Virus record (IMG/VR): IMGVR_UViG_3300032073_000312
Coordinates: 1-21,498 of that record
DNA from: a virus
Strand: one strand, 5' to 3'
Length of the DNA: 21,498 nucleotides
The notes under the pieces are model-generated. The model was not told where the DNA came from. It did not search any database and worked only from the letters and a program-made list of their open reading frames with translations. Of the stretch, positions 1,731 to 20,770 are shown in pieces; positions within the stretch are counted from its first letter, which is position 1; every line of letters starts with the position of its first letter. The position numbers and the translations under genes were made by a program.

Positions 1731-1762
1731 ATTATAGATGCGTTATTTTTCTCACTTTTTTA
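1731..1762 (-). promoter_or_regulatory. promoter-like 32-bp element, copy 2
   Basis: This is identical to 3044-3075 except for one base (1745 against 3058). On the minus strand it reads TAAAAAAGTGAGAAAAA, then a C or T, then AACGCATCTATAAT. It starts nine bases after the stop of the 56-aa gene and ends 24 bases before the start of the 80-aa gene, and sequence similarity stops right after CTATAAT. The TATAAT matches a sigma70 -10 box, but no -35 box is found at 16-18 bases. The long conserved core suits a single-subunit phage RNA polymerase promoter better. The activity is inferred. Confidence 0.6.
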
Positions 1763-2615: not shown

Positions 2616-2735
2616 TTAATTTATTTGCTCTGCAGTTATAAAGGATTTATCACTACAAATTATAGACATTAATTGGTATATAACTCCCCAAGCAAATAAG
2701 GCAAGGAAAAGCAGTATCCAATCAAATTTTATCAT
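2616..2735 (-). CDS. 39-aa single-TM peptide of the lysis cassette
   Basis: A 39-residue peptide starting MIKFDWILLFLALFAWGVIY and ending CSDKSFITAEQIN. Residues 4-26 form one strong transmembrane helix. The C-terminal tail has a single cysteine and is polar. Its ATG overlaps the last codons of the three-TM gene in another frame, and its stop lies ten bases before the SleB start, so the three genes are coupled. Antiholin, small holin or spanin subunit are the main options. The lack of a lipobox at the right place argues against an outer-membrane spanin. Confidence 0.6.
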   Translation of the reverse strand: MIKFDWILLFLALFAWGVIYQLMSIICSDKSFITAEQIN

Positions 2736-3018
2736 TACTTACATTCTCCTTCACAGGAAGTTTGTCTAGTGTCCAGTTTAAGAACTTTCTATAAGCTGTT
2801 TCTTGTTGTTCATCATCTTTTATAACGTGAGAAATTATGTCAACTAAAAACAAACCTAAAATAAAAACACTTGTCTTTGGCGATACAGCAAGAGCAATAC
2901 CTAAAGTTACACCAACCCAAAGGATAGGCACACGATATAGTTTTTTACCCATTACAGCTTTTGCCCAAACAAGTCTTGTTAAAGTTCCGATTGATAACGC
3001 GATTAATGCGGCATACAT
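2722..3018 (-). CDS. three-TM membrane protein, holin candidate
   Basis: A 98-residue protein. Hydrophobic segments lie at about 2-18 (YAALIALSIGTLTRLVW), 34-49 (VPILWVGVTLGIALAV) and 53-69 (TSVFILGLFLVDIISHV), followed by a charged tail (DDEQQETAYRK...). Three helices and a polar C-terminus fit class I-like holins. The start is placed at 3018, where AAAGGAAAG lies upstream at proper spacing. The ATG nine codons earlier has no ribosome site. It is the first gene after a terminator and the promoter-like element, and two genes upstream of SleB. The context is the main support for holin; it has no named family that I recognise. Confidence 0.65.
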   Translation of the reverse strand: MYAALIALSIGTLTRLVWAKAVMGKKLYRVPILWVGVTLGIALAVSPKTSVFILGLFLVDIISHVIKDDEQQETAYRKFLNWTLDKLPVKENVSNDKI

Positions 3019-3043
3019 TTTACTTTCCTTTAATTGTTTATTC

Positions 3044-3075
3044 ATTATAGATGCGTTGTTTTTCTCACTTTTTTA
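3044..3075 (-). promoter_or_regulatory. promoter-like 32-bp element, copy 1
   Basis: First copy of the element also found at 1731-1762, with 31 of 32 bases the same. It lies just after the strong terminator that closes the tail operon and 26 bases before the start of the holin-candidate gene, which is where a new promoter would be expected. The minus-strand core AACGCATCTATAAT has a loose resemblance to the T7 promoter core (ACGACTCACTATAG). No sigma70 -35 box is visible. Confidence 0.65.
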
Positions 3076-3125: not shown

Positions 3126-6100
3126 TTAGCCTTTGTAGTTGCTCTCTTTGTTTTGAGAGTTAACTCCGCTGGCAATAGCTGGTAACATCTTTATTATTTC
3201 TTGTCTTGTTTGACGAGATATATCGCCTGTTATTGACAAGTTTACAACACTAGAATTTCCTTTTGAATTTCCGTTTAAATAGCTGTTTACTTTATCTGTA
3301 GGGACAACTAATTCGCCTGGAGTTAACATGGCAGGAACTGAGTCTTGTCCGACTCTTGACATGCTTGTATTAGGAACAATTCCTCCATTAGAGAAAGGAA
3401 TAAAGCTAATAGCTTTGCTAATCGCACTTCCCCAATCAAATTCAAACAAATTTTCAAACAACTTATCAAAAGTAGATTTTAAACTTGCTGCTTTAAAGAA
3501 AGCCTCAGTGAAAGAATCTACAACAGTGTCTATAATCTGATTGCTAATACTGTCTAATATTGTATTAAAGAAGTTAGCAATAGTAGATTGACCTTTTATT
3601 AGAGTTTTAAAGCCTTCTGCAAAAGAATTTTGTATTGAATCAGTTGCCGCCTCTGCTCTTACAGTTAGGTTTTCTACTTGCTGTCGTCTTTTATCTAACA
3701 AATCATTTATACGTTGTTGATTTTCAAGATCGTTAGCACCTAAAGAATTCAATTCTTCTTGTAGATTAATTATATCTAAAGATAATTCTTTTACTCTTTC
3801 ACTTTCAAACAATAAGTTAGGATCCATGCCCATAGACTCAAAACCAATTTGAGCTTGCTCAACAGTTCCCCCTCTAGTAAGCTGATCAAAAATTACAGCT
3901 CTTTGATCTTTTATGATTTTCAGAGCGTCTTTTCTACTTCTAGAATCTGCTAAAGAAGATTTTATTATTTTCTTCTGAGCAACTTCTACTTTCTTTAAAG
4001 CGCCTTCTATAGTTAAGATCGATCTTGTACTTAAACTAGATGCCTTTGCAAGATCAAATGCAAAATTACTGTCGTTAAGACCACCTACTAGCTTTTCAAA
4101 AATAGTTTCGCTAGAAGTGCTTATGCCTTTACCAGTGCCTTTGAGTATTTCTTCAATAACTTTTTGGAATTTCTTTGACGAAGCGGCAATCTCTTTAGCT
4201 GAAAGGCCTTCTATTATGCCATTCATATTGTTTGCTTCACTTAGTCTTTGCATAAGCAAAGAAAGTCTTCCAACCTCCTCCTGAGCATCAATTAACTTTT
4301 TAAGGGTAATTGCGTCAAGAGTTAGTATGTCATTTATATCAAAAGTAAGATCGTCTACAGAACTCATAGCTTCTTGTAAAAGACTAATTCTATTAGTTTC
4401 TGATAAACCAAGTTGATTACTCAAGTCAACAAGATGCCTTAAGTGCTGATCTTGAGCTAATATTGCGTCATTCTGAAAATCAATACTTGTGATTCTGTCT
4501 CTGTCTTGAAGCTCTGTATTTTGCTGTATATTAAATAGCTCGGTTTCAAGAACTTTTCTTTGTTTAAGGGAATCATTAATCCTTTGTATTATTGCGTAGG
4601 ACTCTGTGTCATTAAAATTTTGAAGATTTAAACTAGAACTTATACCTATATCTTCAAGCTGTCTATTGACGTCAGTTATTGCGCCTTTGTCTATTTCTAC
4701 ATTTGTTAAAGAAATAACAGCTTCTTCAAACTGTTTTAATCTTGAGCCGTATGCTTGTATTAGCCCCTCATCAACACCTCTTAACATTGAGTCTAAGGCT
4801 GCACTAGCACTGCCTTGAGAAAAATTTATTCTTTCAAGGTCATTTCCTTGAAAAATTTCTCTTTCATCTCTCTCTAATCTTGACTGCATTAGTCTTAGAG
4901 TACGCATTTCTCCCATGTCTATATTAGCAAAGGCAAGACCGCTGACTTCTCCTCCTAAAATTTCAGACATTCTTGGTTCAAGTGCAGCTCTACCTGTCTG
5001 CATTGATTGAATGCTTCTTAATGTAGTTCTAAGAAATGTAGCATCTCCTAATTCTAATTGAGAATCAGAGTTGTTATCTAATGCTGCTAATCTTGCTCCC
5101 GCAGAAGTTCTGCTAAAAAGATCTTTTAAACTATTAAAGAAGGTACTGTCATTCATTGCTAACTCATTAAGTTGAGCGCCTACGTCAGAATCTATTACCC
5201 CTCCCCCAAATCTTATTTCTTCAAGGGTTGCTGTTAATGCGTCAGGAAGTCTTAAATCTGCTTCTAATAAAGCAGTAGCAAAAGCTTCAGCTATTGCAGG
5301 AGTATCCAACCTTTCGGCTGTAAATTTACCTGCATTTATATCTTTAAGTAAATTTTGCCTAACTAAGTCTACACCTTCTAAATCGGCTTTCATAAAGCTA
5401 GGAAGGAGGTCTGAAAGTTTAAAGGGTTTTACAAGCCTAATTGCACTTGAAAATTGATCTGACAGACTTGCAAGGCCAGCCGCCCCTTGGGAGGCACTTC
5501 GGCTGTCTGTGTCATTTACTGCATATACTGCAGTCTCAACTGCTCTTGCAGCAGCTTCAATATCTTTTCTAGTTTCTTGAGAAATTTCTCCGTATCTGAT
5601 TCTTTCCTTTTCTGCTTTATCTCTATTTTTATCTAATGTTTTAACAGCTCTTTCTATCTTGAGAAGATCTTTGTCATCAGCATCAGAAATATTAGCATCT
5701 GCTAACTTAGAACTTAAATTTATTTTAAAGCCTTTTCCTAGGTCACTCTCAATCATTCTGAGATCTTTAACCATTTTCTTTCTAACATCAGAAAGGTCTT
5801 TTCCAAGTAGGTTAAATCTAGCACCAATATCGTCAAATACGTTTTTAGTCTTTTCTTTAAAAGAGTCTCCTGTACCAAACAGAGCAATCGATAACGCCCC
5901 TGCCGTAACAGCTACTATTGCCGCTACTAGACCAATTATCATTGCAGGGATTGCGGCTATAAGACCACCAATAGCTAAAGAAAATCCAGTAACTAAAGTA
6001 GTCACTAAGGTTGTTGCAAAGCCTGATAAAGCAGCTGTGATTACAGAAACAAATCTTAACTTGCCAAGCATACCAAGTAATTTTCCTAAAGCAGGTATAG

Positions 6101-9100
6101 CATAACTAAGTATAGTATCTCCAAAAGATAATACTGCTAAAGCAGCTAATCCAAAGCCACCAGATAATGCAGTTTCTGCACCTGTACCCGCACTTGCCAT
6201 TCCAGCAAATGCTGTTGTTACAACACCCGCTATTAAGCCAATTTTTCCAAGTCTTTTAAGAGAAAATTTACTAAATCTGCCAACAGAGTTTGTTGCCTTT
6301 TTAGTTCCTGTTCTCCAACTAGTTGCAAAACCACGAGTAGTTCTCATGTTCATACTGCCAATTTTTGAAAGAAGGCTTGTGCTGCCTGCTGCAGTATTTC
6401 CAATAAGAGCACCAATAATGCTTTGCCCTCGTGCCATTAAATTCAAAGAAGAAATTCTAGTCATTGCAGCAGCAAGAATTGAGTTAAAAGTTCCTACAAT
6501 AAAGGCTAGCTTCTTAGGATCCCCTAGTATTGCGCTTTGTACTAAAGACGCACCAATACCAACTATTGCGGCCCCTGTAGTGCCTATTAAGTCTCCTAAT
6601 AATAACTCAGCTCCAACAACGTAACTAGCAAGACCCGCTAGACTGGCTATTCCTCTTCTTTTATTCTGTCTTGCAAGACCAGCTGCTAAACCTCCCATTT
6701 GAGCTTTAGATGCGCCAATAATTTGTTTACTTGTATTAGCAGGATTACTACCAACAAATAAATCATAAAGCATACCCGTACCACGAGCAGCACCTATTGA
6801 CGTTAGACTTGTTTTAACAAAGCCAATTAACGCAGTTCTTATTTTTTTAAAGAAAACGGCTGCAGCTAAACCACCATATAAAATAGTAGTAAGCAAACCA
6901 CCGCCTGGAAGGAAAGACAGTATTTGAGCAGGAAGCCCTATTATACTATTTCCTATTGATTCGGCAAGACCCTTACCAAAGGCATTAGCAACACTTAGTA
7001 GTGTTCTCAATATTTTTGGTATGTTTGTTATAATAGTGTTTATACCTTGTCCTATTGCATTTCCAAGGCCTCTTGCAACTTCTTCAAATACACCGCTTCT
7101 TAACAGTGCGCCATCAAAAGCTGCGGCTACTGCTGTGAATACAGATATAAACAACAAAGGGCCTAACTTAGCAAAAGTCTTTTTAAATAGACTAGGACTA
7201 ACTGCTTTTGTTAAAGCCGCTGCAATACCTAAAGAAATAAACGATGCAATCTGAGGAGATATCTCTCTTATTGTCGTAAAGCTTTTTCTAATTGAAATTG
7301 ATATAACGTCAGCTAATTCTTGACCCATTCCGAAAGCAGCTTCTTTAGCTGCCCCTGCTCTTATTTTTACCTTAGATACAGTAACAGAAAGACCTTCGGA
7401 TGAAAAATTGCTAGAGCTAAAGTTGTCAAAAACACGTTTAAATATTTCTGAAACCTTAGATCCAAAGTCAGATACAGCTCTTGTAGTTTTTGGTAAAAAT
7501 TCTAAAGCTCTGTCATAGATACCTTCCATAGTGTCTGTCCACCAAGAATTACCTATAACTTCATTATATAACCAAAAGAATTTTCTTTCAATAAATTCTA
7601 ATGCTGTTTTTACATAGTTTACTGTTTGAGAAAGATATTTAACAGTTACATCATAAATTCCTAGCATTGTAGTATTTACTCTTTTAAATACTTTGCTAAG
7701 GCTTCCACCAAACGATTTGTTTATTGCGTCTCCAACAGCAACGAAGAATTGGCCTAACTTTCTTATTTGAATTTGTAAAGCTACTACTAATTCTGTTGCT
7801 AATATATTTCTTTTTATTTCTTTAAAAGCTTTTCCTAAAACGGCTGATGCTTTTCCGAATCTCTCAAAAGAAGTATATCTTAACCTGAGAAGGCTTCTGT
7901 CTATAATTCCAAGGAAAATTCCAGTTTCATATAAAGCAACATTTAAGGATCTGAGAACTTTTTCACCAATATTTCCAAAGTTATACCAACGTTTTCCATA
8001 CCTGTCAATTACTTCGCCGAGAGTATATAAATTGTCTCCAAATTCTTTCAAATTTGAGGAGTTAAATATAGAGCGTATAGCCCCTGAAAACTTAGTGTCA
8101 GTTATTCTTGCAAAGATTGCTTCAACGTCTAGTCCAAATCTTCTGAGGGCTGCACTAGCAAATAAAAAGGCCCCAGCAACATTTAATTGAATTACTTGAC
8201 CAAAGTCTCTAAAAGGCGTTATTACTTTTGGAATAGCATCAAGAGCACGGTTAAATATAGCACTAATGATACGAGCCAGCCCTCTGCCTACAGATATTAT
8301 TCCTGTAAAGGTATCAGCGAAAGCTCTCCCTGCGCCTACAATTCCTGAAACTAAGGATGAGCGATTGCCTTCAATAGCGTCGGTTATTTTATTTATACGG
8401 CTAGTAAAGGCAGCTGTAATTCCTAGTTGTTTACTTACTTCACCTGTAACCCTTCCAATCTGATCTCTTAAGACAGACAGTGCTTGATTTGATGTTTGTT
8501 CAACAAGTTCAAATTCTTTAGCTAGTTTTTCGGACTGACTTAGCAAAGCTTCAAAGACCACATCAGTAGTAATCTTACCTTGTTCTGCTAGTTTTCTGAG
8601 AGAACCAAAAGGAACTTCCATAGCATCTGAAATAACTCTTGCAAGCCTAGGAGCCTGTTCTAATACTGAGTTAAGCTCTTGACCACGTAATTGACCAGAA
8701 GCTAAACCTTGCCCTAACTGGAACAAAGCAGCACGAGTTGATTCTGCACTTCCTCCAGAAATAGAGGTAGCTAGACCAACTGAAGTAATTGCTTTGTTGA
8801 CTGCTTCTGCTGATTTACCTGCATCTTTAAGAGCAATACCAAATCGGTTATATGTTTCTACAGTTGCGTCAATAGGCGATCGAGTATCTTTAGCGATCTT
8901 GTATAGACTATTCAACTGGTTATTCATTGCCTTTCCTCGACCAGTAACTAATGAGATTCTATTCTCAAGGTTAGTCAGGGAGTCTGTGGCACCATTAATT
9001 CCTTTAGTTATTGCTGTACCTGCAAAGGCTGCACCAATACCGATAGCAAGTCTTCGAAATGCTGTGTTTAATCCTGTGGTTGTTCTTTCAATTCGACCAA

Positions 9101-9176
9101 CCGATTTCTCTAAACGTCCTAAGTCTCTTTGTGCTTGACGACTATTAGAACGTACTCTAATTTCTACACCACTCAT
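3126..9176 (-). CDS. tape measure protein (2016 aa)
   Basis: The long tail-length ruler that lines the tail tube. Residues about 66-220 match the tape-measure N-terminal domain (for example RSPIDATVETYNRFGIALKD, then GGSAESTRAALFQLGQGLAS and GQLRGQELNSVLEQAPRLAR). Residues about 620-1110 contain several hydrophobic stretches, such as GLIAAIPAMIIGLVAAIVAV, which may form membrane-spanning segments on ejection. Residues about 1130-1900 are rich in predicted coiled coil. The C-terminus has the usual GGIVPN...GQDSVPAMLTPGELVVP motif of lambda-like tape measures. By the usual ratio of about 0.15 nm per residue, 2016 residues imply a tail near 300 nm. No lysozyme or peptidase motif was noticed. AAGGAG precedes the ATG. 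It follows the gp10-like gene after a strong hairpin and is followed by a terminator, with no tail-tip genes behind it. Confidence 0.95.
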   Translation of the reverse strand: MSGVEIRVRSNSRQAQRDLGRLEKSVGRIERTTTGLNTAFRRLAIGIGAAFAGTAITKGINGATDSLTNLENRISLVTGRGKAMNNQLNSLYKIAKDTRSPIDATVETYNRFGIALKDAGKSAEAVNKAITSVGLATSISGGSAESTRAALFQLGQGLASGQLRGQELNSVLEQAPRLARVISDAMEVPFGSLRKLAEQGKITTDVVFEALLSQSEKLAKEFELVEQTSNQALSVLRDQIGRVTGEVSKQLGITAAFTSRINKITDAIEGNRSSLVSGIVGAGRAFADTFTGIISVGRGLARIISAIFNRALDAIPKVITPFRDFGQVIQLNVAGAFLFASAALRRFGLDVEAIFARITDTKFSGAIRSIFNSSNLKEFGDNLYTLGEVIDRYGKRWYNFGNIGEKVLRSLNVALYETGIFLGIIDRSLLRLRYTSFERFGKASAVLGKAFKEIKRNILATELVVALQIQIRKLGQFFVAVGDAINKSFGGSLSKVFKRVNTTMLGIYDVTVKYLSQTVNYVKTALEFIERKFFWLYNEVIGNSWWTDTMEGIYDRALEFLPKTTRAVSDFGSKVSEIFKRVFDNFSSSNFSSEGLSVTVSKVKIRAGAAKEAAFGMGQELADVISISIRKSFTTIREISPQIASFISLGIAAALTKAVSPSLFKKTFAKLGPLLFISVFTAVAAAFDGALLRSGVFEEVARGLGNAIGQGINTIITNIPKILRTLLSVANAFGKGLAESIGNSIIGLPAQILSFLPGGGLLTTILYGGLAAAVFFKKIRTALIGFVKTSLTSIGAARGTGMLYDLFVGSNPANTSKQIIGASKAQMGGLAAGLARQNKRRGIASLAGLASYVVGAELLLGDLIGTTGAAIVGIGASLVQSAILGDPKKLAFIVGTFNSILAAAMTRISSLNLMARGQSIIGALIGNTAAGSTSLLSKIGSMNMRTTRGFATSWRTGTKKATNSVGRFSKFSLKRLGKIGLIAGVVTTAFAGMASAGTGAETALSGGFGLAALAVLSFGDTILSYAIPALGKLLGMLGKLRFVSVITAALSGFATTLVTTLVTGFSLAIGGLIAAIPAMIIGLVAAIVAVTAGALSIALFGTGDSFKEKTKNVFDDIGARFNLLGKDLSDVRKKMVKDLRMIESDLGKGFKINLSSKLADANISDADDKDLLKIERAVKTLDKNRDKAEKERIRYGEISQETRKDIEAAARAVETAVYAVNDTDSRSASQGAAGLASLSDQFSSAIRLVKPFKLSDLLPSFMKADLEGVDLVRQNLLKDINAGKFTAERLDTPAIAEAFATALLEADLRLPDALTATLEEIRFGGGVIDSDVGAQLNELAMNDSTFFNSLKDLFSRTSAGARLAALDNNSDSQLELGDATFLRTTLRSIQSMQTGRAALEPRMSEILGGEVSGLAFANIDMGEMRTLRLMQSRLERDEREIFQGNDLERINFSQGSASAALDSMLRGVDEGLIQAYGSRLKQFEEAVISLTNVEIDKGAITDVNRQLEDIGISSSLNLQNFNDTESYAIIQRINDSLKQRKVLETELFNIQQNTELQDRDRITSIDFQNDAILAQDQHLRHLVDLSNQLGLSETNRISLLQEAMSSVDDLTFDINDILTLDAITLKKLIDAQEEVGRLSLLMQRLSEANNMNGIIEGLSAKEIAASSKKFQKVIEEILKGTGKGISTSSETIFEKLVGGLNDSNFAFDLAKASSLSTRSILTIEGALKKVEVAQKKIIKSSLADSRSRKDALKIIKDQRAVIFDQLTRGGTVEQAQIGFESMGMDPNLLFESERVKELSLDIINLQEELNSLGANDLENQQRINDLLDKRRQQVENLTVRAEAATDSIQNSFAEGFKTLIKGQSTIANFFNTILDSISNQIIDTVVDSFTEAFFKAASLKSTFDKLFENLFEFDWGSAISKAISFIPFSNGGIVPNTSMSRVGQDSVPAMLTPGELVVPTDKVNSYLNGNSKGNSSVVNLSITGDISRQTRQEIIKMLPAIASGVNSQNKESNYKG

Positions 9177-10536: not shown

Positions 10537-10555
10537 TTCTTAAACGTCAGCTATT
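10537..10555 (-). repeat. 19-bp direct repeat, copy 1, after the major tail protein
   Basis: The minus strand reads AATAGCTGACGTTTAAGAA, identical to 20752-20770. The first bases overlap the TAA stop of the major tail protein gene, and the terminator hairpin starts four bases later. The two copies lie in the same context: stop codon, repeat, hairpin. Function unknown. Confidence 0.8.
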
Positions 10556-12385: not shown

Positions 12386-13501
12386 TTAAGCGTGATAGAT
12401 AGGCAGAATGCCCAAGTTAAGCGCAGACATCTTACGAGTATACGAAGCAGCTGCCGCGTAAGTAGTATTAGTTGCAAACGCGTTTGTAGCACCAGACCAG
12501 TCATAACCCATTGGGTGCATGATAAATCCATAACGGTACCAAATGTTTGTTGATCCACCACCAGTGTAAGAGGCCGCATCACGGTCTACTTCAACAGGAG
12601 TTGGTGCAGGTACAGGAGCAAAAGAAATAGCTCCAGGCTTTAGCAAGAAAGAACACTTAACTGATCGTGTGTTCAAGTCATTAGTTGGGCCAGCAGCAAA
12701 TTGATTTGCACGAGTCATAACTAAGCGGAACTTACCACCAAAGATAGTCTGGAAATCCATGTTACCTTCTGTGATACGTGTTTCGTCTACTAAGTTAGCA
12801 GCACGCATTTCAGCCATAACTTCAGGTGAAGTAACTAGATACATAAAGTCTGGCTCATGGTCTTTGAAGCCCATGCCTAAAGCTTTAAATAAACGCTCAC
12901 CACGAGCAGCACCTGTTGAAGATGCGTCAAATAGTTTACGCTCAGTAGCTAAGTTAGTTGCTGCAGCACCAAATTCGCCAAGGGCGTTGACGTCTACAAA
13001 CATACCTGTAGCTGCCGCATCTGGGTCTGTTCCGTATGCAATTAAGCCTCCGTTTCCAGAACCGCCTTTGTCACCAAGAGTTACCTCTGAAAGAGCAACG
13101 CCCTTCAAGATAGCCATAAGTGCGTCACCTTCGTCATCTCCACGTACTTGTGCAAAGTCACGAGCAATTTTTGCTAGCCCGTCTTGCTTTGAGATAACTT
13201 CTTGTAGGTTTACTTGCTGTGCGCCAAATGTACGCATGGTCTTGATATAGTTAGCGATATCAGTTGAAACATCTGTATATGTACCGTCAGTTGCACTTGA
13301 CAAAGAAGGAACATTGATGTTAGCCGATAAAGGCTTGTGATATCTGAATTGTCCAACAAAAGATTCGCCACTGGCGTTAATGTCGGGTCGAGAAGAAACA
13401 ACGCCTGTGGCATTGAGTTTCTTGGATGATGTATAAGCTTCATCAGCGTAGGCAGATATTGCTACCGCTACGTTTTGAAAGTCTGTATTTGTAATAGCCA
13501 T
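12386..13501 (-). CDS. major capsid protein
   Basis: A 371-residue protein starting MAITNTDFQNVAVAISAYAD. It directly follows the scaffold gene and precedes the connector, which is the standard place for the major capsid protein. Supporting segments are a long helix (IANYIKTMRTFGAQQVNLQE), LAKIARDFAQVRGDDEGDAL, ...FLYLVTSPEV-type strand-helix units around residues 210-230 (DFMYLVTSPEVMAEMRAANL), and the C-terminal YGFIMHPMGYDWSGAT. This resembles HK97-fold capsid proteins of the larger (350-400 residue) class. There is no N-terminal delta/protease region, so maturation depends on the separate scaffold. The ribosome site is AAGGA. Confidence 0.85.
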   Translation of the reverse strand: MAITNTDFQNVAVAISAYADEAYTSSKKLNATGVVSSRPDINASGESFVGQFRYHKPLSANINVPSLSSATDGTYTDVSTDIANYIKTMRTFGAQQVNLQEVISKQDGLAKIARDFAQVRGDDEGDALMAILKGVALSEVTLGDKGGSGNGGLIAYGTDPDAAATGMFVDVNALGEFGAAATNLATERKLFDASSTGAARGERLFKALGMGFKDHEPDFMYLVTSPEVMAEMRAANLVDETRITEGNMDFQTIFGGKFRLVMTRANQFAAGPTNDLNTRSVKCSFLLKPGAISFAPVPAPTPVEVDRDAASYTGGGSTNIWYRYGFIMHPMGYDWSGATNAFATNTTYAAAASYTRKMSALNLGILPIYHA

Positions 13502-13532: not shown

Positions 13533-14213
13533 TTAATAATTAAATGATCCTAACTGGCCTTTTGATGCTAGCCCCAGAACTTCTTCTTGAGTCATCTCTG
13601 ACAAGGACTTCTTTTTGTCCATGTTAGGTGCTCCTGAAGGTTGTCCTGCCCCTGCCCCTGTGTTTCCTTTAACACGGAATAGGAAGGAATTATCTTCGTC
13701 TTTTGAGTAAGAGGTAACAAAGTCTTGAATATTTATTCCTGACTTATGAACCCAAGTACCGTTTTCATTTTGAATAAGTTGCTCAACAATATCACGATAG
13801 GCTAGTTGACGAGAGCGATCACTCCTGAAATCTAGCATAGCAAGTGTAGAACTAACAACACTGTCACGATTAAGTTTAGTGTTTTCCTCTTCAGATACTT
13901 TTAATTTAGCTTGAGATTCGGCAAGTTTCATTTCTAAAACTTCCTGAAGTTTTCCCTCATCTTCCAGACGTTTCATCTGTTCTTGCTTTTGATTGTTCTC
14001 AATCTCAGCAGCTTTTTTAAGGGCTTCATCTCGTTCATTAGCCATTCTGTCCATGTTTGTCTTCATTTTTAAAAGACGTTCTTGGACTTCACGCTCAATC
14101 GGATCAACCTCGTTTTCAACGGGGGCCTCTTGAACTTGTTCTTGTTCTTGTTGTTCGGCCTTGATAGGCTCATCAGAAGTTACTTCTTCAATTACTTTAT
14201 CTTCTTCACTCAT
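13533..14213 (-). CDS. capsid scaffolding protein
   Basis: A 226-residue, strongly acidic, helical protein. The first ~40 residues are glutamate/glutamine-rich (EQQEQEQVQEAPVENEVDP), followed by a long coiled coil over about residues 45-120 (VQERLLKMKTNMDRMANERD...). After that come a small region around RSRQLAYRDIVEQLIQNENG and a short basic and then hydrophobic tail (MDKKKSLSEMTQEEVLGLAS). This fits phage scaffolds, whose C-terminal helix binds the capsid subunit. The start is at 14213 with AAAGGA before it; an upstream TTG would put the ribosome site inside the gene. It sits between the MuF-type gene and the major capsid gene, as in SPP1. Confidence 0.8.
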   Translation of the reverse strand: MSEEDKVIEEVTSDEPIKAEQQEQEQVQEAPVENEVDPIEREVQERLLKMKTNMDRMANERDEALKKAAEIENNQKQEQMKRLEDEGKLQEVLEMKLAESQAKLKVSEEENTKLNRDSVVSSTLAMLDFRSDRSRQLAYRDIVEQLIQNENGTWVHKSGINIQDFVTSYSKDEDNSFLFRVKGNTGAGAGQPSGAPNMDKKKSLSEMTQEEVLGLASKGQLGSFNY

Positions 14214-14298
14214 TTTTTTTCCTTTCAAGCACAGCTTGATTTAAATTTTATACTGGATTACAAATCCATTTCTTTTGGTCTTAGGCTATTACAAATAA

Positions 14299-17200
14299 CT
14301 AAGGCCCAATTCCATACCAGTCTTGTCCTTGTTTCAAGGGAGCTAGTATGTCTTTTCGTGTTATCTTATCGGGAGGATCAATTAGGCCAAGCTCTATTGC
14401 TTCTGCTAAGATTCTCTTATAAGTCTTATTAGATAAACCCTGTCTACGCATTTCTTTTAAGGTTTTTCTTATTGTTTCCCCTTCAAGAGCATCAGCATAG
14501 ATGGATCTTAAAGCGTCTTTTGCTCTTTGTGCCTCACCAATATTGGTAAAAAAAGCATCGTGAATAGTACCAGTTTCCACGTTGTTCTTCCGACCCCAAA
14601 GGTGGAAGCGTCTCACAATAACTGCGTCATTACTGTGATTACCGTTAACACCTAATCCAATAGACGCATTTGCAACAGAAGACTTTCCTAAAAGTTTTCC
14701 ATCAGGTGCGCTAGATTCATAGATGTTGGCAATTCTTCGTCCTGTAACTGAATCGGTAAATTCAATTCTTTCTTGTAATTTAGGACGATATCTCTGTGTT
14801 ATTATTTTCCCGTCAAAAGTGACCCAAGGTATATCAACCTTTTCAGTTTCTAATACAAAAGACTTAGCTGTTCTTTTCCAGAAATTAATAAAATTATCAG
14901 TTACTGGCGCACGTTCAGCTAAATTTTTAGACATTATTTTTGAAATTTCAGTAAACTCTTTTGGGCCTATTAAGCCTCTCCTAGAGTTCATAAGTTTCTC
15001 AACAAAGTCTGCTGTATCGGGATGAACCTCTTGAGCTTGTTTTAATAGTGTACGACCTAGTGGTTCGTTGTTATTTATCATCTCAATTAATTCTGTTCTA
15101 AAACTCTTTAACTCGTTACTGGTATTTAAAGCACCTATTCTTTCTGATAGCTTTATTTTACCATCAATTATTCTAAGTTGTTCACTTAGATTTGATTTAG
15201 TAACTGTCGTATATCCTTTGCTGTTTAAAACTTTAGAAAGTTTGTCTGCAATATTTGCGGTTTTTGTTGCCTCTCCTGCACCGTAGAAAGATACCATGTT
15301 TTGTGCTTTTGCAGCCTTTGCAAGATCTTCCCAAGTTAAATTGGCGTCCCTTAAAGCAGGTATCTTTAAAAAGTCAGGATCATTTACTGTGTCTATTGCA
15401 ACTAAATCATATAGTCTATTTTTTTGATTTGTTGCCAAAACATTAGATGCCATAGATACTTTTCTGTCTCCTGTTGAAAGCCCTATTATTTGAGCGCCTG
15501 AAGATGAAGCATCGTTTTCTATCATTAACTTTGTTTTGTAATTAGACAATAAATTTGTATTTCTAAAGTCTCCATTAACATGATCATTAACTCTTTTGTA
15601 TTCTAAAGCCATTCGTGCTAATTTTGGAACTTCTGGCCCTTCTAACTCGCGAATAAGAGGATGTTCAAGAAACTCCCTCATTCTTCTATCTCTTTGAGTT
15701 TTGTTTTGAAGAAGACCACCTAGCTCTAATATCTTAGATTCATTCCTTTTGAATATCTCTCGTCTACCTGCTTGAGTTAATGCTTCAGTTCCTGGCCCTA
15801 TCATAGCTCCTAGTTGAATTTTTAATTCATCTACAGCCAAAGGACTCATAGATACTGACTTGCCAGAATTTAAAAAAGGACGTACCATTTCTCCCCCAGT
15901 TGGGGTTAGGTAGCCTCTATGATAAACTCTTCCACGAGAATCTAAAAAAGCTAAAGTCTTAAAATTTTTACCTCGTTGTCTATGCCACTTAGCAGTAGAC
16001 ATCATTCCATATCCTTGTTCTCCACGATTAAGGACTTCATGCCTAAAACTATTAATAGAGTCATAGTATTTTGAGTTACCTCTTGGGTCTCGAAATCTAA
16101 CAATATCATCCATGAAATCAAAAAATTCTGGGTCTACACTGTATTCGCTGTTCATAACATGGTTCATCATGTTAGCCATATCAGCATCTATTTGTTTAGG
16201 ATTATAGTCAGGAAATTTTTCCGCTGAGATTAAAGGAATACCTGTGTCTTGTCCTCTGGCATTAACATACGTTTTTTTATTTGCTTTTACATAAAGACGA
16301 TCTCGATCAGAAACCACCCCTATTCTACGAGCAATAACTGTTCTACGCTCAGCCTCTTGAAGTCTTAATAAGCCCTTGTCTATTACAGTTACTTCTCTTG
16401 ATATTGTATCAGCCCAACCTCCAGAAGCCCTTCCTGTTTCAAGGTCTAGAACACCTCTCCTAGTTTTGCCTCTAAATTGAACTCTTATCATGTTTTGGTC
16501 AACTAAAAATTTTAATATTTTAGAGCCTTCTGCATGATTACTTTTTAAAGTATGTTTAGTAAAAGGAATTATGCTTTTAAAGTCTTCAGAAAATTTTTTA
16601 CCGATATTTATAGCAAGAGCATCATAGTCTGTAGATTGACCACTTGCAATTAACTTAACAGACTTAGTAATGCTATCTAAAGCTTTATCATCAAATATTT
16701 TTGAAGTAGGTTTTTTCTTTGCATGAAAAAATTCTAAGTCTAATATCCTTCTTATAGACTCCCTGCCCCTAGCGTAATTTAATACAGTCCAGTTATCAGA
16801 GGGGTCTCTGTTATATTTTTTTACAAAAGAAGTGTATTCCTTATTAAAGGGAATATCTTTTTTAATTCTTTTTATAACGTCTTTTTTAGATTGATATTTT
16901 GAACTAAATTTTTGGAAGTAAGATCTTAGTGGCGCTCTTCCTGAAAGATATAATTTAGTTGCTAATTTTTTTCCTTCAGTGGATCTCCAATTATCAATAT
17001 ACCTTTGGTCTTTTAATAGGTTTTTTTGTATATCGTTAAAGTTGTAGTACTGACCCATTATTTGAACTTTAGGCGTGTCTGAGCCTTTAGATAAATAACT
17101 TACAAACATTTGGGATTTTTGTCTAGACCTTGTGTCTAGTAGTCTAGAAACGTTTTGAACTGCAAATCTGTTTTCAGCTCTGACTACAGAAGAAAAATCA

Positions 17201-18678
17201 CTCCAAGGTTTTTTATCTTTGGCGTATCTTTCAAATACAACTCGTAGGTTTTCTATTACTACTGTTTGTTGATTTAAAGATATTTTGTCATCTAAACCAG
17301 CGGCTGTACTTTGAATAAAATCTTTTTGATCTAAAGTTAGTAGTTTAGAATTACGCATAAAATCAATTCGTTCTTGGTAGAGATTAAAGTCTGGGTCATA
17401 TAAGTTATTATTTTTAACTTCACCAGATAGAGGGTCTACAGAAAAATTTCTTTCGTCAAATTCGTTACCAACTCTTCTTCGTGACGCTTGTTTTCCTACT
17501 AAAGTTGTACCTTTGTAGTCAGTTAAACTCATTGTCTTACTAAAGTCATCAGAGTCTAATAAGTATAGCTGTCTTAGATCGGCTTTGTGTTTTGGATTTT
17601 TTATTAAATAATTTGGTGTTTTAGCATTAACTTGAATGCCTACTTCTCTTAATTTTTGTTTTGGAGAATATACAGAAGTAATTAAAGCTGCTTTATTTCT
17701 TAGTGCCTGTATACTCAATCCTTTTCCTTTAGGAGTAACAAACTCACTTGCTTTTATTTTTCCCTGTCTAAACAAATTTGCAGCATCTTCAGACCCTAAC
17801 ATTTTTGTTTGTACAATCATAGATTGGGTTTTTAACCACTCACCAAAAGACTTTATTTTAGAAGGAAGACCATTTAAGTTTAAAATGTCTTTTTTCTTAA
17901 GAACGGATTTCTTTATTCGGGGGTCGGAGACAGGAAGCATATCTTCTTTTGAGGCTATGACGGGAACCATACTGGATCTACAAGACCAATGAAGAGGTGG
18001 CATATATCGCTTATCGCCTACTTCATAAACTTTTCCATTGTGATGAGTACAAATAGGACTAGTTCTAGAGTCTAGTATTGCAGTAAACATATATCCTTTT
18101 ATAACGCCTTTGTTATTTTCCATAACTTTATCTAAAGCTAATGCCTGTGTACTTGTTATAGAAGTTCTGGTCAAGGTTCTAGCTTGATGCTCAGTTATTT
18201 TAGTAGTTTTTAAAACGTCAGATATAATTTCATTTTGGCTTAAGCCTTTGGCTAAACCCGCCTTAACTTTAGTTTGTATTCTAATAAGTTCACCAGAAGA
18301 TATATTTCGTAAATTCTTCTTAAGGGTTTTTGTACCCTTTATATTTGGGCCTGTTATCTCGCCAATTAATTCTTTTGTTTTAGGTTTCTTAACTTTATAA
18401 AAGTCTTTTACCCCTTTAAATAAATTATCTGTATGAAAGTCTAATTGGGATGTAGAAAATTCTCTAAGGCTTGTTTCAGAATGTGATAAAAGTTCTTTAC
18501 CAAATCTGTTTATTTCTGGTTTAACATCAGATCTTATATTTTTTCTTAGTATTCCTGTAAGCTTGTTTCTATGACGTTTTATTATTCTTCTGTTTTGGAG
18601 TTGGACGCCTTCTTCATAGAGCCGAACATCTCCCATATGATCTACAATGCGATCAAAAATTCCATCATTTACACTCAT
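14299..18678 (-). CDS. MuF minor head protein fused to a single-subunit RNA polymerase
   Basis: A 1459-residue protein. Residues about 130-240 are a phage Mu F/SPP1 gp7-like head domain, with RTLTRTSITSTQALALDKVM (168-187) and the C/H cluster DSRTSPICTHHNGKVY...PPLHWSCRSSMVP (203-239). Residues about 450-1459 carry single-subunit polymerase signatures. FLDSRGRVYHRGYLTPTGGE (911-930) corresponds to T7 DWRGRVY, with R917 at T7 R425. ENDASSSGAQ (1054-1063) is motif A, with D1056 at T7 D537. K1124 and Y1132-G1133 are motif B (T7 K631, Y639-G640). TIHDAFF (1371-1377) is motif C, with D1374 at T7 D812. Both metal-binding aspartates are present, so activity is likely. The arginine expected four residues before the motif B lysine is Ala1120, with K1121 beside it. 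Residues 250-450 are an unassigned linker. The order portal, this gene, scaffold, capsid matches the SPP1 gp7 position, implying a virion protein at the portal. The start follows AGAGGG. Confidence 0.9.
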   Translation of the reverse strand: MSVNDGIFDRIVDHMGDVRLYEEGVQLQNRRIIKRHRNKLTGILRKNIRSDVKPEINRFGKELLSHSETSLREFSTSQLDFHTDNLFKGVKDFYKVKKPKTKELIGEITGPNIKGTKTLKKNLRNISSGELIRIQTKVKAGLAKGLSQNEIISDVLKTTKITEHQARTLTRTSITSTQALALDKVMENNKGVIKGYMFTAILDSRTSPICTHHNGKVYEVGDKRYMPPLHWSCRSSMVPVIASKEDMLPVSDPRIKKSVLKKKDILNLNGLPSKIKSFGEWLKTQSMIVQTKMLGSEDAANLFRQGKIKASEFVTPKGKGLSIQALRNKAALITSVYSPKQKLREVGIQVNAKTPNYLIKNPKHKADLRQLYLLDSDDFSKTMSLTDYKGTTLVGKQASRRRVGNEFDERNFSVDPLSGEVKNNNLYDPDFNLYQERIDFMRNSKLLTLDQKDFIQSTAAGLDDKISLNQQTVVIENLRVVFERYAKDKKPWSDFSSVVRAENRFAVQNVSRLLDTRSRQKSQMFVSYLSKGSDTPKVQIMGQYYNFNDIQKNLLKDQRYIDNWRSTEGKKLATKLYLSGRAPLRSYFQKFSSKYQSKKDVIKRIKKDIPFNKEYTSFVKKYNRDPSDNWTVLNYARGRESIRRILDLEFFHAKKKPTSKIFDDKALDSITKSVKLIASGQSTDYDALAINIGKKFSEDFKSIIPFTKHTLKSNHAEGSKILKFLVDQNMIRVQFRGKTRRGVLDLETGRASGGWADTISREVTVIDKGLLRLQEAERRTVIARRIGVVSDRDRLYVKANKKTYVNARGQDTGIPLISAEKFPDYNPKQIDADMANMMNHVMNSEYSVDPEFFDFMDDIVRFRDPRGNSKYYDSINSFRHEVLNRGEQGYGMMSTAKWHRQRGKNFKTLAFLDSRGRVYHRGYLTPTGGEMVRPFLNSGKSVSMSPLAVDELKIQLGAMIGPGTEALTQAGRREIFKRNESKILELGGLLQNKTQRDRRMREFLEHPLIRELEGPEVPKLARMALEYKRVNDHVNGDFRNTNLLSNYKTKLMIENDASSSGAQIIGLSTGDRKVSMASNVLATNQKNRLYDLVAIDTVNDPDFLKIPALRDANLTWEDLAKAAKAQNMVSFYGAGEATKTANIADKLSKVLNSKGYTTVTKSNLSEQLRIIDGKIKLSERIGALNTSNELKSFRTELIEMINNNEPLGRTLLKQAQEVHPDTADFVEKLMNSRRGLIGPKEFTEISKIMSKNLAERAPVTDNFINFWKRTAKSFVLETEKVDIPWVTFDGKIITQRYRPKLQERIEFTDSVTGRRIANIYESSAPDGKLLGKSSVANASIGLGVNGNHSNDAVIVRRFHLWGRKNNVETGTIHDAFFTNIGEAQRAKDALRSIYADALEGETIRKTLKEMRRQGLSNKTYKRILAEAIELGLIDPPDKITRKDILAPLKQGQDWYGIGP

Positions 18679-18739: not shown

Positions 18740-20311
18740 TTATTCTATTTCAATTTCATCGTCTTGAACTGCGTTAGCTTGAGACAAAGGGTCTGTTTGA
18801 ATTTCTTCTATAGCCTCTTCATCGCTATAATCAGCGGGTAAGAAATCGTTATACTTAGCTATATTTAAGAAAGTTGAACGACTTATTATGCCCATCTGAT
18901 ACCACTCAGATACAAGTCTCATTGCGCCTTCTCCACCTACCATAGGTGCAAAATCACTAGACATTTGAAATTCTAGGTCAGAACTAGAAACTTCTATATT
19001 GTATTTCCAATTAAGCATAAAGGCTATAACTTCTCTCATAGTTCCAGAGACTTTTGCGTTAAGCGTTCCTAGCTGTGCTGTTTGTGAAGCATTTCTTATT
19101 TCTAAAGCAACACCTGAAGCAGCTTGTTCTGGGGATAACATTCTTATTCCCATCTTAGCCATTTCTTCTACAGTAGACTCGATTGCTCTGTCCATGTCGG
19201 AAAGAGCCGCAGTAGGTGTTTCTAGAACACTTATGCTTTCATCCTTTCTAACACGTAGCCAACTTCCTAGCCCTGCGTCCACAATGTCTTGAAATTCTTC
19301 GTCAGTCATGTCAGACTGAACAACAGGAGTATAAGTTGCCGCACCGTATAATAGGTGGTTTCGACGAGATACTTTGTTGTATAAAGAAATTTCTCGATCG
19401 ACCAAAGGCATTAGCACAGGTTCAACGGGATCAAAATGACCATTTAGAGGCCAAGCTGGAATTTTGTTAATTCGCTCTCCGTATATTGTTGGCATAACGG
19501 TATTTACTTTTTTAAATTGTGCCTCTGTAATCATGTCATGATAGTCTTGTGAAGTATCTCCGTTTAAAACTGTTATAACATTGTTAGTATCAGGGTGTTC
19601 ATAGTAATCTATTACTAGCTTTCCATCTTCATCTAAATAGTGATCTGCAACAGTGTCTACGTGATTTGCGTGCCAGGGATTATCATCTTCATATCTAGTA
19701 GTTAGATATCGTGTAACCCAACGACTAAGCGTCTTTTGCCTTGTTAAAGGATGAGTATCTGTTTGTACATTTATAACATTTTCTGCTTTAGTGAGAATAG
19801 GATAAGGCTTTATAAGATCTTTGTCTTCAGGAGACATTTCTAGATAGTCTTCCTCACTTACTGAGGGATGATCCACATAAACCCAAGCTCTAGAAGTTTG
19901 AAGCTCTTCCCAAAGAGCATTGTCTAAAAAATTAAATAAAGAACGACCATCTAAGGTAAAATTATTTTTTATCCATTCTGTTGACATTTCTGGCAAATCT
20001 TCAGGTAGTTTTAAATGAGATTCTTTTCTAAGTAATGCACTTATTAAAACCTTGCAATATTGAGAAGTTAGACCTGGAAGTTCAGCTTCAGACTTGTAAA
20101 AATCATATTGTTTTTGAGTCATGCTTGGAGAAAAAGGAATTAAGAGATTTGTATAATCATAAGTTAAATACTCATCATGTCCTTTTACGTTTTCCTGACC
20201 TTGTAAAACCGCCCTAGATTTTTTCCAGAGTGGTTTTAGTGATTGATAACTATCACTTGGATCAGCAACAGATCTTTTAACACTTTTTGTTGGTTTGGTT
20301 AGCTGTGCCAT
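18740..20311 (-). CDS. portal protein (DUF4055-like)
   Basis: A 523-residue portal, the dodecameric channel for DNA entry and exit. The N-terminal region SYQSLKPLWKKSRAVLQGQE followed by GLTSQYCKVLISALLRKESH, then SLFNFLDNALWEELQTSRAW and VYVDHP, fits the DUF4055 portal type. RINKIPAWPLNGHFDPVEPV, the stem-type helices and ASGVALEIRNASQTAQLGTL (around residues 400-420) follow. The C-terminus is acidic and ends DDEIEIE. The start has AAAGGA ten bases upstream. It is followed by the MuF-type protein, the classic neighbour of portals. No terminase gene is in the window; it is expected further upstream. Confidence 0.85.
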   Translation of the reverse strand: MAQLTKPTKSVKRSVADPSDSYQSLKPLWKKSRAVLQGQENVKGHDEYLTYDYTNLLIPFSPSMTQKQYDFYKSEAELPGLTSQYCKVLISALLRKESHLKLPEDLPEMSTEWIKNNFTLDGRSLFNFLDNALWEELQTSRAWVYVDHPSVSEEDYLEMSPEDKDLIKPYPILTKAENVINVQTDTHPLTRQKTLSRWVTRYLTTRYEDDNPWHANHVDTVADHYLDEDGKLVIDYYEHPDTNNVITVLNGDTSQDYHDMITEAQFKKVNTVMPTIYGERINKIPAWPLNGHFDPVEPVLMPLVDREISLYNKVSRRNHLLYGAATYTPVVQSDMTDEEFQDIVDAGLGSWLRVRKDESISVLETPTAALSDMDRAIESTVEEMAKMGIRMLSPEQAASGVALEIRNASQTAQLGTLNAKVSGTMREVIAFMLNWKYNIEVSSSDLEFQMSSDFAPMVGGEGAMRLVSEWYQMGIISRSTFLNIAKYNDFLPADYSDEEAIEEIQTDPLSQANAVQDDEIEIE

Positions 20312-20751: not shown

Positions 20752-20770
20752 TTCTTAAACGTCAGCTATT
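20752..20770 (-). repeat. 19-bp direct repeat, copy 2, after the M15 endolysin
   Basis: Identical to 10537-10555 (minus strand AATAGCTGACGTTTAAGAA). It lies three bases past the endolysin stop codon and upstream of inverted repeats and the 20685-20706 hairpin, which is the same context as copy 1. Confidence 0.8.

Follow-up and report, generated by a model that had tools for sequence, protein, structure and literature searches.

A MuF head protein fused to a T7-type RNA polymerase: a candidate virion-carried polymerase in aquatic siphoviruses

Phages N4 and P23-45 share a two-polymerase logic, in which a virion RNA polymerase (RNAP) is combined with a non-virion one (PMC4496689, PMC10770324). 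In SPP1, the portal places gp7 in the procapsid; gp7 is dispensable for assembly and needed for efficient infection, and C-terminal cargoes on MuF proteins are known (PMC6316719). A 2017 survey of polyvalent proteins found N4-like RNAP modules restricted to N4-like phages (PMC5512222). Here we analyse a stretch of 21,498 nucleotides (the window), positions 1 to 21,498 of the IMG/VR virus record IMGVR_UViG_3300032073_000312, which encodes a protein, MuF-RNAP, that joins a MuF head domain to a single-subunit RNAP. We propose, with a probability of roughly 0.72, that MuF-RNAP is a virion-carried RNAP acting in a two-polymerase cascade, in which packaging, ejection and the pairing of enzymes with promoter-like motifs are what we infer.

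The original prediction had described an uninterrupted frame of 1459 codons at 14299-18678 encoding a MuF/SPP1 gp7-like domain and a single-subunit RNAP. The frame is there, on the minus strand, and it is a one-frame fusion of a MuF/SPP1 gp7-type head domain followed by a complete single-subunit RNAP, an assignment on which profiles, structure and conservation agree. Pfam places Phage_Mu_F at residues 134-237 (E=1e-13, above the cut-off) and RNA_pol at residues 1045-1416 (E=2e-5, exceeding the gathering cut-off), and PHROGs returns both head morphogenesis (E=2e-45) and RNA polymerase (E=3e-20). In tblastn, the MuF-only proteins of other phages align only to approximately residues 1-330; that of Vibrio phage 1.047.O has 365 aa and lacks the polymerase part. 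The MuF profile (PF04233) is matched by all 24 fusion family members. The predicted motifs A, B and C and the DxRGRVY segment are real: DSRGRVY lies at residue 913, DASSSGAQII holds D1056, K1124 and YG1133 form a K-x7-YG element, and H1373-D1374 make up motif C. All are nearly invariant in an alignment of 24 homologues. Across 12 sequences from the marine and freshwater clades, reaching down to 31% identity, D1056, K1124, Y1132-G1133 and H1373-D1374 are invariant, as are D913, R915 and R917, and the one exception is the glycine of DxxGR, which is not fixed in the freshwater clade.

An AlphaFold2 model of residues 260-1459, built with 22 homologues, has a mean pLDDT of 74, with the palm region mostly at 76-96, and contains the palm fold expected around the catalytic residues. 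The 50 best PDB matches in Foldseek are exclusively T7 RNAP (E ~1e-16) and mitochondrial RNAPs, and the VIA Z scores reach 26.4 for human mitochondrial RNAP and 25.9 for T7 RNAP (631 residues). The family profile recovers T7 RNAP by sequence, and DxxGR and motifs A and C align in register; the single MuF-RNAP protein, searched against PDB sequences with phmmer, gave no match. The model confirms the polymerase part as a predicted T7-type palm/fingers fold with an intact active site. The N-terminal part is modelled confidently as helical, and a search with the model of residues 1-546 gave no solved structure below E=0.001. In a tree of short alignment blocks, too short for deep branches, MuF-RNAP forms a clade of its own. 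The same tree, with its deep branches unsettled, does not support derivation of MuF-RNAP by duplication from the second RNAP of the phage itself (RNAP2, see below).

A database search for the combined MuF and RNAP architecture, as the original prediction had suggested, shows that it is widespread. IMG/VR yielded 105 and then 370 marine-type relatives, plus 48 that belong to the freshwater/wastewater type; among 186 loci, both parts lie in a single frame in 161, 20 are truncated at contig ends and 5 are split. Among cultured phages, the Naomviridae DSS3_VP1 and DSS3_PM1 encode full-length relatives (61-62% identity in tblastn), annotated as 'head morphogenesis' or 'minor head protein' and nothing more, and EBPR siphovirus 1 has a split relative. 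The window gave no megablast match to phages, and no relative was confirmed in bacterial and archaeal genome contigs; therefore, no prophage or host link emerges. Wherever a locus spans the genes for portal, MuF-RNAP, scaffold and capsid (96 loci), they follow one another in that order. Pfam and PHROGs also identify homologues of a tape measure protein, a tail terminator and a major tail protein, which support the long tail of a siphovirus, as first proposed. DSS3_VP1 and DSS3_PM1 share with the window the genome plan and the class I motif described below, and their class II motif is related. DSS3_VP1 also encodes a separate RNAP (gp080, 732 aa), and a second canonical T7-like RNAP gene is present in all but three of the 16 larger records; those three are partial. 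With this second enzyme beside MuF-RNAP, the family therefore appears to have a virion-type and a non-virion-type RNAP, like N4 and P23-45. A check of 15 other family records did not find the genes that DSS3_VP1 has for uracil-containing DNA (dU-DNA), so the fusion is seemingly independent of uracil DNA. Direct terminal repeats of ~125 nt lie at the ends of the records of G010, G012 and DSS3_VP1, which consequently look complete.

The MuF-RNAP gene is also a hotspot for insertions. Rfam identifies group I introns in split MuF-RNAP genes (L066 8894-9136; L082 23179-23405), the match in EBPR siphovirus 1 (L082) lying below the gathering score. Further intron-bearing genes are those of L128, L136, L141, L145, L167, L170, L173 and L175, with several introns each in L173 and L175, and two distant phages share an intron site precisely at motif B, at residue 1129/1130. 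In EBPR siphovirus 1, gp47, gp48 and gp49, annotated as 'head protein', 'HNH endonuclease' and 'hypothetical protein', are a single intron-split MuF-RNAP gene. Two fixed positions, near residue 252 (L053, L061, L058, L070) and near residue 1038 (L068, L150, L164, L171, L190), carry in-frame insertions of unrelated domains of 125-200 aa, and a GExHT... domain is found at either position in different phages. In L174/L175, the MuF domain is interrupted at the conserved Cys233 by an insert that resembles an intein and has a LAGLIDADG motif. Some relatives carry tRNA genes between portal and MuF-RNAP (L066 5290-5519; NC_055826 21063-21138).

Two classes of promoter-like motif accompany the family. 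Class I, AAAAAGTGAGAAAA-N5-GCATCTATAATGA, occurs twice on the minus strand of the window (Table 1), and DSS3_VP1 has its sites at 35812 and 36259, just downstream of the tape measure gene. The pattern AAAGTGAGA-N8-GCATCTATAAT was found in 79 stretches among 2.9 million IMG/VR viral contigs, and 78 of them belong to the MuF-RNAP family, 76 by family genes and two by MuF-RNAP records (the class I stretch L268 is part of the same record as L034). Strand and order are constant in all 105 pairs of a site with the tape measure gene and in all 59 pairs with RNAP2, the sites lying upstream of RNAP2. The freshwater clade has its own version, GCGG-N7-GGYATCTTATATGAA, upstream of RNAP2 in 40/40 pairs, which brings both clades together to 99/99 site-gene pairs; these counts are not independent events, because the loci overlap and share ancestry. 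All 16 records of at least 59 kb found through class I patterns encode MuF-RNAP. Class II reads AATAGNTGACGTTWAAGAA in the window and its relatives and AATAGGTTACGTTAAAGAGGGGGA in DSS3_VP1, where the site at 29399 occupies the place equivalent to 10539 in the window. All 60 class II sites in marine loci share the strand of MuF-RNAP, and 51 lie no more than 0.55 kb upstream of the portal gene. From position and resemblance, RNAP2 quite likely reads class II, and the same two grounds make it somewhat probable that MuF-RNAP reads class I. The listed start of the open reading frame (ORF) at 2722-3045 falls within a class I motif; its true start is probably an internal ATG (MYAALI...) after a ribosome-binding site.

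Given the arrangement of these genes and motifs, we propose a model of the following kind: (i) Class II promoters would drive late expression of MuF-RNAP as part of the portal operon. (ii) Through portal binding by the MuF part, MuF-RNAP would be taken into the procapsid in a few copies, in the manner of SPP1 gp7. (iii) At infection, MuF-RNAP would leave the head together with the genome, and its T7-type part would transcribe the block behind class I, which holds early genes and the RNAP2 gene. (iv) RNAP2, an ordinary T7-like enzyme, would then drive class II, including the element before the portal/MuF-RNAP operon, and the resulting portal, MuF-RNAP and structural proteins would lead back to packaging through the MuF-portal contact. 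A polymerase made from a late head operon could act on early genes only when packaged. Delivery with the DNA is suggested by the gene position, the late-type class II, the second RNAP and the location of class I upstream of RNAP2. The wider view gives about even odds to an independently evolved virion RNAP system, in which a portal-bound MuF protein would take its T7-type polymerase along the tail of a siphovirus, read its own ~30-base promoter, make the second polymerase and so dispense with host RNAP at the start of infection; its transcription might also draw the genome into the cell. Two observations weigh against delivery and the cascade: a protein of ~1460 residues would need to unfold to pass a narrow siphovirus tail, and marine class I holds a perfect TATAAT that host sigma-70 RNAP could use.

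The latter gives rise to the strongest rival, namely that RNAP2 is produced, as in T7, by host sigma-70 RNAP acting on class I, while packaged MuF-RNAP does something else, such as DNA pulling or acting at few sites. We consider this unlikely. Class I has neither TTGACA at the -35 distance nor an extended -10, and its ~30 nearly fixed positions include much of the spacer, unlike host promoters (sites were picked by ATCTATAAT, some loci by pattern, and unselected loci agree). The diverged freshwater clade retains the flanks, yet has TTATAT in place of TATAAT. A generic scan of the early region gave sigma-70 matches at chance level, and terminator scans likewise gave chance-level matches. Furthermore, an inverted repeat, 6 bp or longer, begins directly after TATAA in 66 of 104 distinct marine class I sites, with ten different stems at a fixed position and 0.8 sites expected from shuffles; it is weak in the freshwater clade (8/75 sites versus 1.1 expected), and the window's own two sites are without it. 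The repeat could possibly form a 5' RNA hairpin or a DNA hairpin. Its position directly after TATAA fits an RNA start there with such a 5' hairpin, or a DNA hairpin, better than a sigma-70 start ~7 bases further on, without being proof.

A role for MuF-RNAP solely as late polymerase of the producing cell, tethered by MuF to assembling heads and never delivered, would agree with its place in a late operon behind class II. It is improbable, because a second canonical RNAP is already present for late genes, MuF proteins are internal head proteins, and MuF cargoes have been proposed as delivered at infection (PMC6316719, PMC5512222). Still less credible is the transfer of an N4 (Schitoviridae) virion RNAP (vRNAP) family member into a siphovirus. 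The overall fold is held in common (VIA Z 18.9 for N4 mini-vRNAP and 17.1 for N4 RNAPII), whereas the family profile scores T7 at 25.6 bits, N4 RNAPII at 9.7 and N4 vRNAP below zero, the giant flanking regions are missing, the short-block tree places MuF-RNAP in its separate clade, and motif C and the DxxGR element read HD and DxxGR, as in T7 and N4 RNAPII, against FDG and TxxGR in N4 vRNAP. The label 'T7/N4-type' given by the original prediction thus holds for the T7-type fold and motifs and fails for N4 vRNAP in detail. An assembly or annotation artefact, or a dead polymerase remnant, would agree with the weak Pfam scores of the polymerase part and has a negligible chance, being refuted as far as sequence goes by single-frame fusions in 161 loci and two cultured phages and by active-site residues invariant down to 31% identity.

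Table 1. Coordinates of the MuF-RNAP gene, its parts, neighbouring genes and promoter-like elements in the window
Feature	Position	Strand	Basis or remark
MuF-RNAP fusion gene	14299..18678	-	1459 aa, frame without break; homologues found
MuF / SPP1 gp7-like head-morphogenesis part, residues 1-330	17689..18678	-	Pfam, PHROGs, alignment extent, helical model
Pfam MuF core, residues 134-237	17968..18279	-	Phage_Mu_F match
Linker, residues 331-546, mainly helical, no solved match	17041..17688	-	structure model
Single-subunit RNA polymerase, residues ~547-1459	14302..17040	-	aligns to T7 RNAP residues 45-882
DxxGR motif (DSRGR), residues 913-917	15928..15942	-	homologue alignments
Motif A (ENDASSSGAQII), catalytic D1056	15484..15519	-	homologue alignments
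Motif B, K1124 to YG1133	15280..15309	-	homologue alignments
Motif C, H1373-D1374	14557..14562	-	homologue alignments
Portal protein gene, directly upstream of MuF-RNAP	18740..20311	-	PHROG 145 E=3e-50; order conserved
Head scaffolding protein gene	13533..14228	-	PHROGs
Major head protein gene	12386..13501	-	PHROGs
Tape measure protein gene	3126..9176	-	Pfam; class I sites just downstream
Class I element (AAAAAGTGAGAAAA-N5-GCATCTATAAT), just downstream of tape measure gene	3044..3075	-	motif search
Class I element, second copy	1731..1762	-	motif search
Class II element (AATAGCTGACGTTTAAG), upstream of portal/MuF-RNAP operon	20754..20770	-	motif search
Class II element, just downstream of major tail protein gene	10539..10555	-	motif search

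The fusion marks a widespread phage group of waters, with several hundred contigs and cultured relatives on Ruegeria pomeroyi DSS-3. If the proposed cascade is true, the whole group would have a host-independent, testable start of transcription, and there would be a new polymerase on offer whose promoter-like motifs are long and specific. It also raises the question of how so large an enzyme passes a siphovirus tail.

The original prediction knew of no siphovirus in which a MuF protein carries a polymerase. We found no description of the MuF-RNAP fusion in the literature searched (Rihtman et al. 2021 on Naomviridae lies outside that search); a siphovirus virion RNAP fused to a structural protein, the tape measure, is known from P23-45, and the novelty consequently resides in the carrier and the enzyme type. 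Judged from sequence, MuF-RNAP would be a new variant of the virion RNAPs of N4 and P23-45, in which MuF carries a T7-type enzyme. Like MuF-RNAP, N4 vRNAP (gp50) has a single-subunit fold and a late-region gene, and in both systems a second phage RNAP gene is an early target and the enzyme is injected with the DNA, as we propose here. However, N4 vRNAP is a 3500-aa ejection protein of a podovirus that reads single-stranded hairpin promoters, whereas MuF-RNAP has ~1460-1560 aa, a MuF carrier, a siphovirus setting and a promoter-like motif that is long and of a different kind. P23-45 gp96 is likewise a structural protein of a long-tailed phage fused to a virion RNAP (packaging of MuF-RNAP being our proposal), and P23-45 also has a second, non-virion RNAP and two differing promoter motifs (PMC10770324), a pairing that would apply here too; gp96 is a two-barrel RNAP akin to cellular enzymes on a tape measure, in contrast to a T7-type palm on MuF. 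MuF polymorphic and polyvalent proteins share the MuF N-terminus beside the portal and a C-terminal enzyme that is presumed to be delivered as cargo, yet the cargoes described are toxins and effectors, for example RNases and RelA/SpoT domains, where MuF-RNAP has a polymerase (PMC5512222). These comparisons suggest that virion RNAPs may have arisen separately on distinct carriers: an ejection protein in N4, a tape measure in P23-45 and MuF in the family described here.

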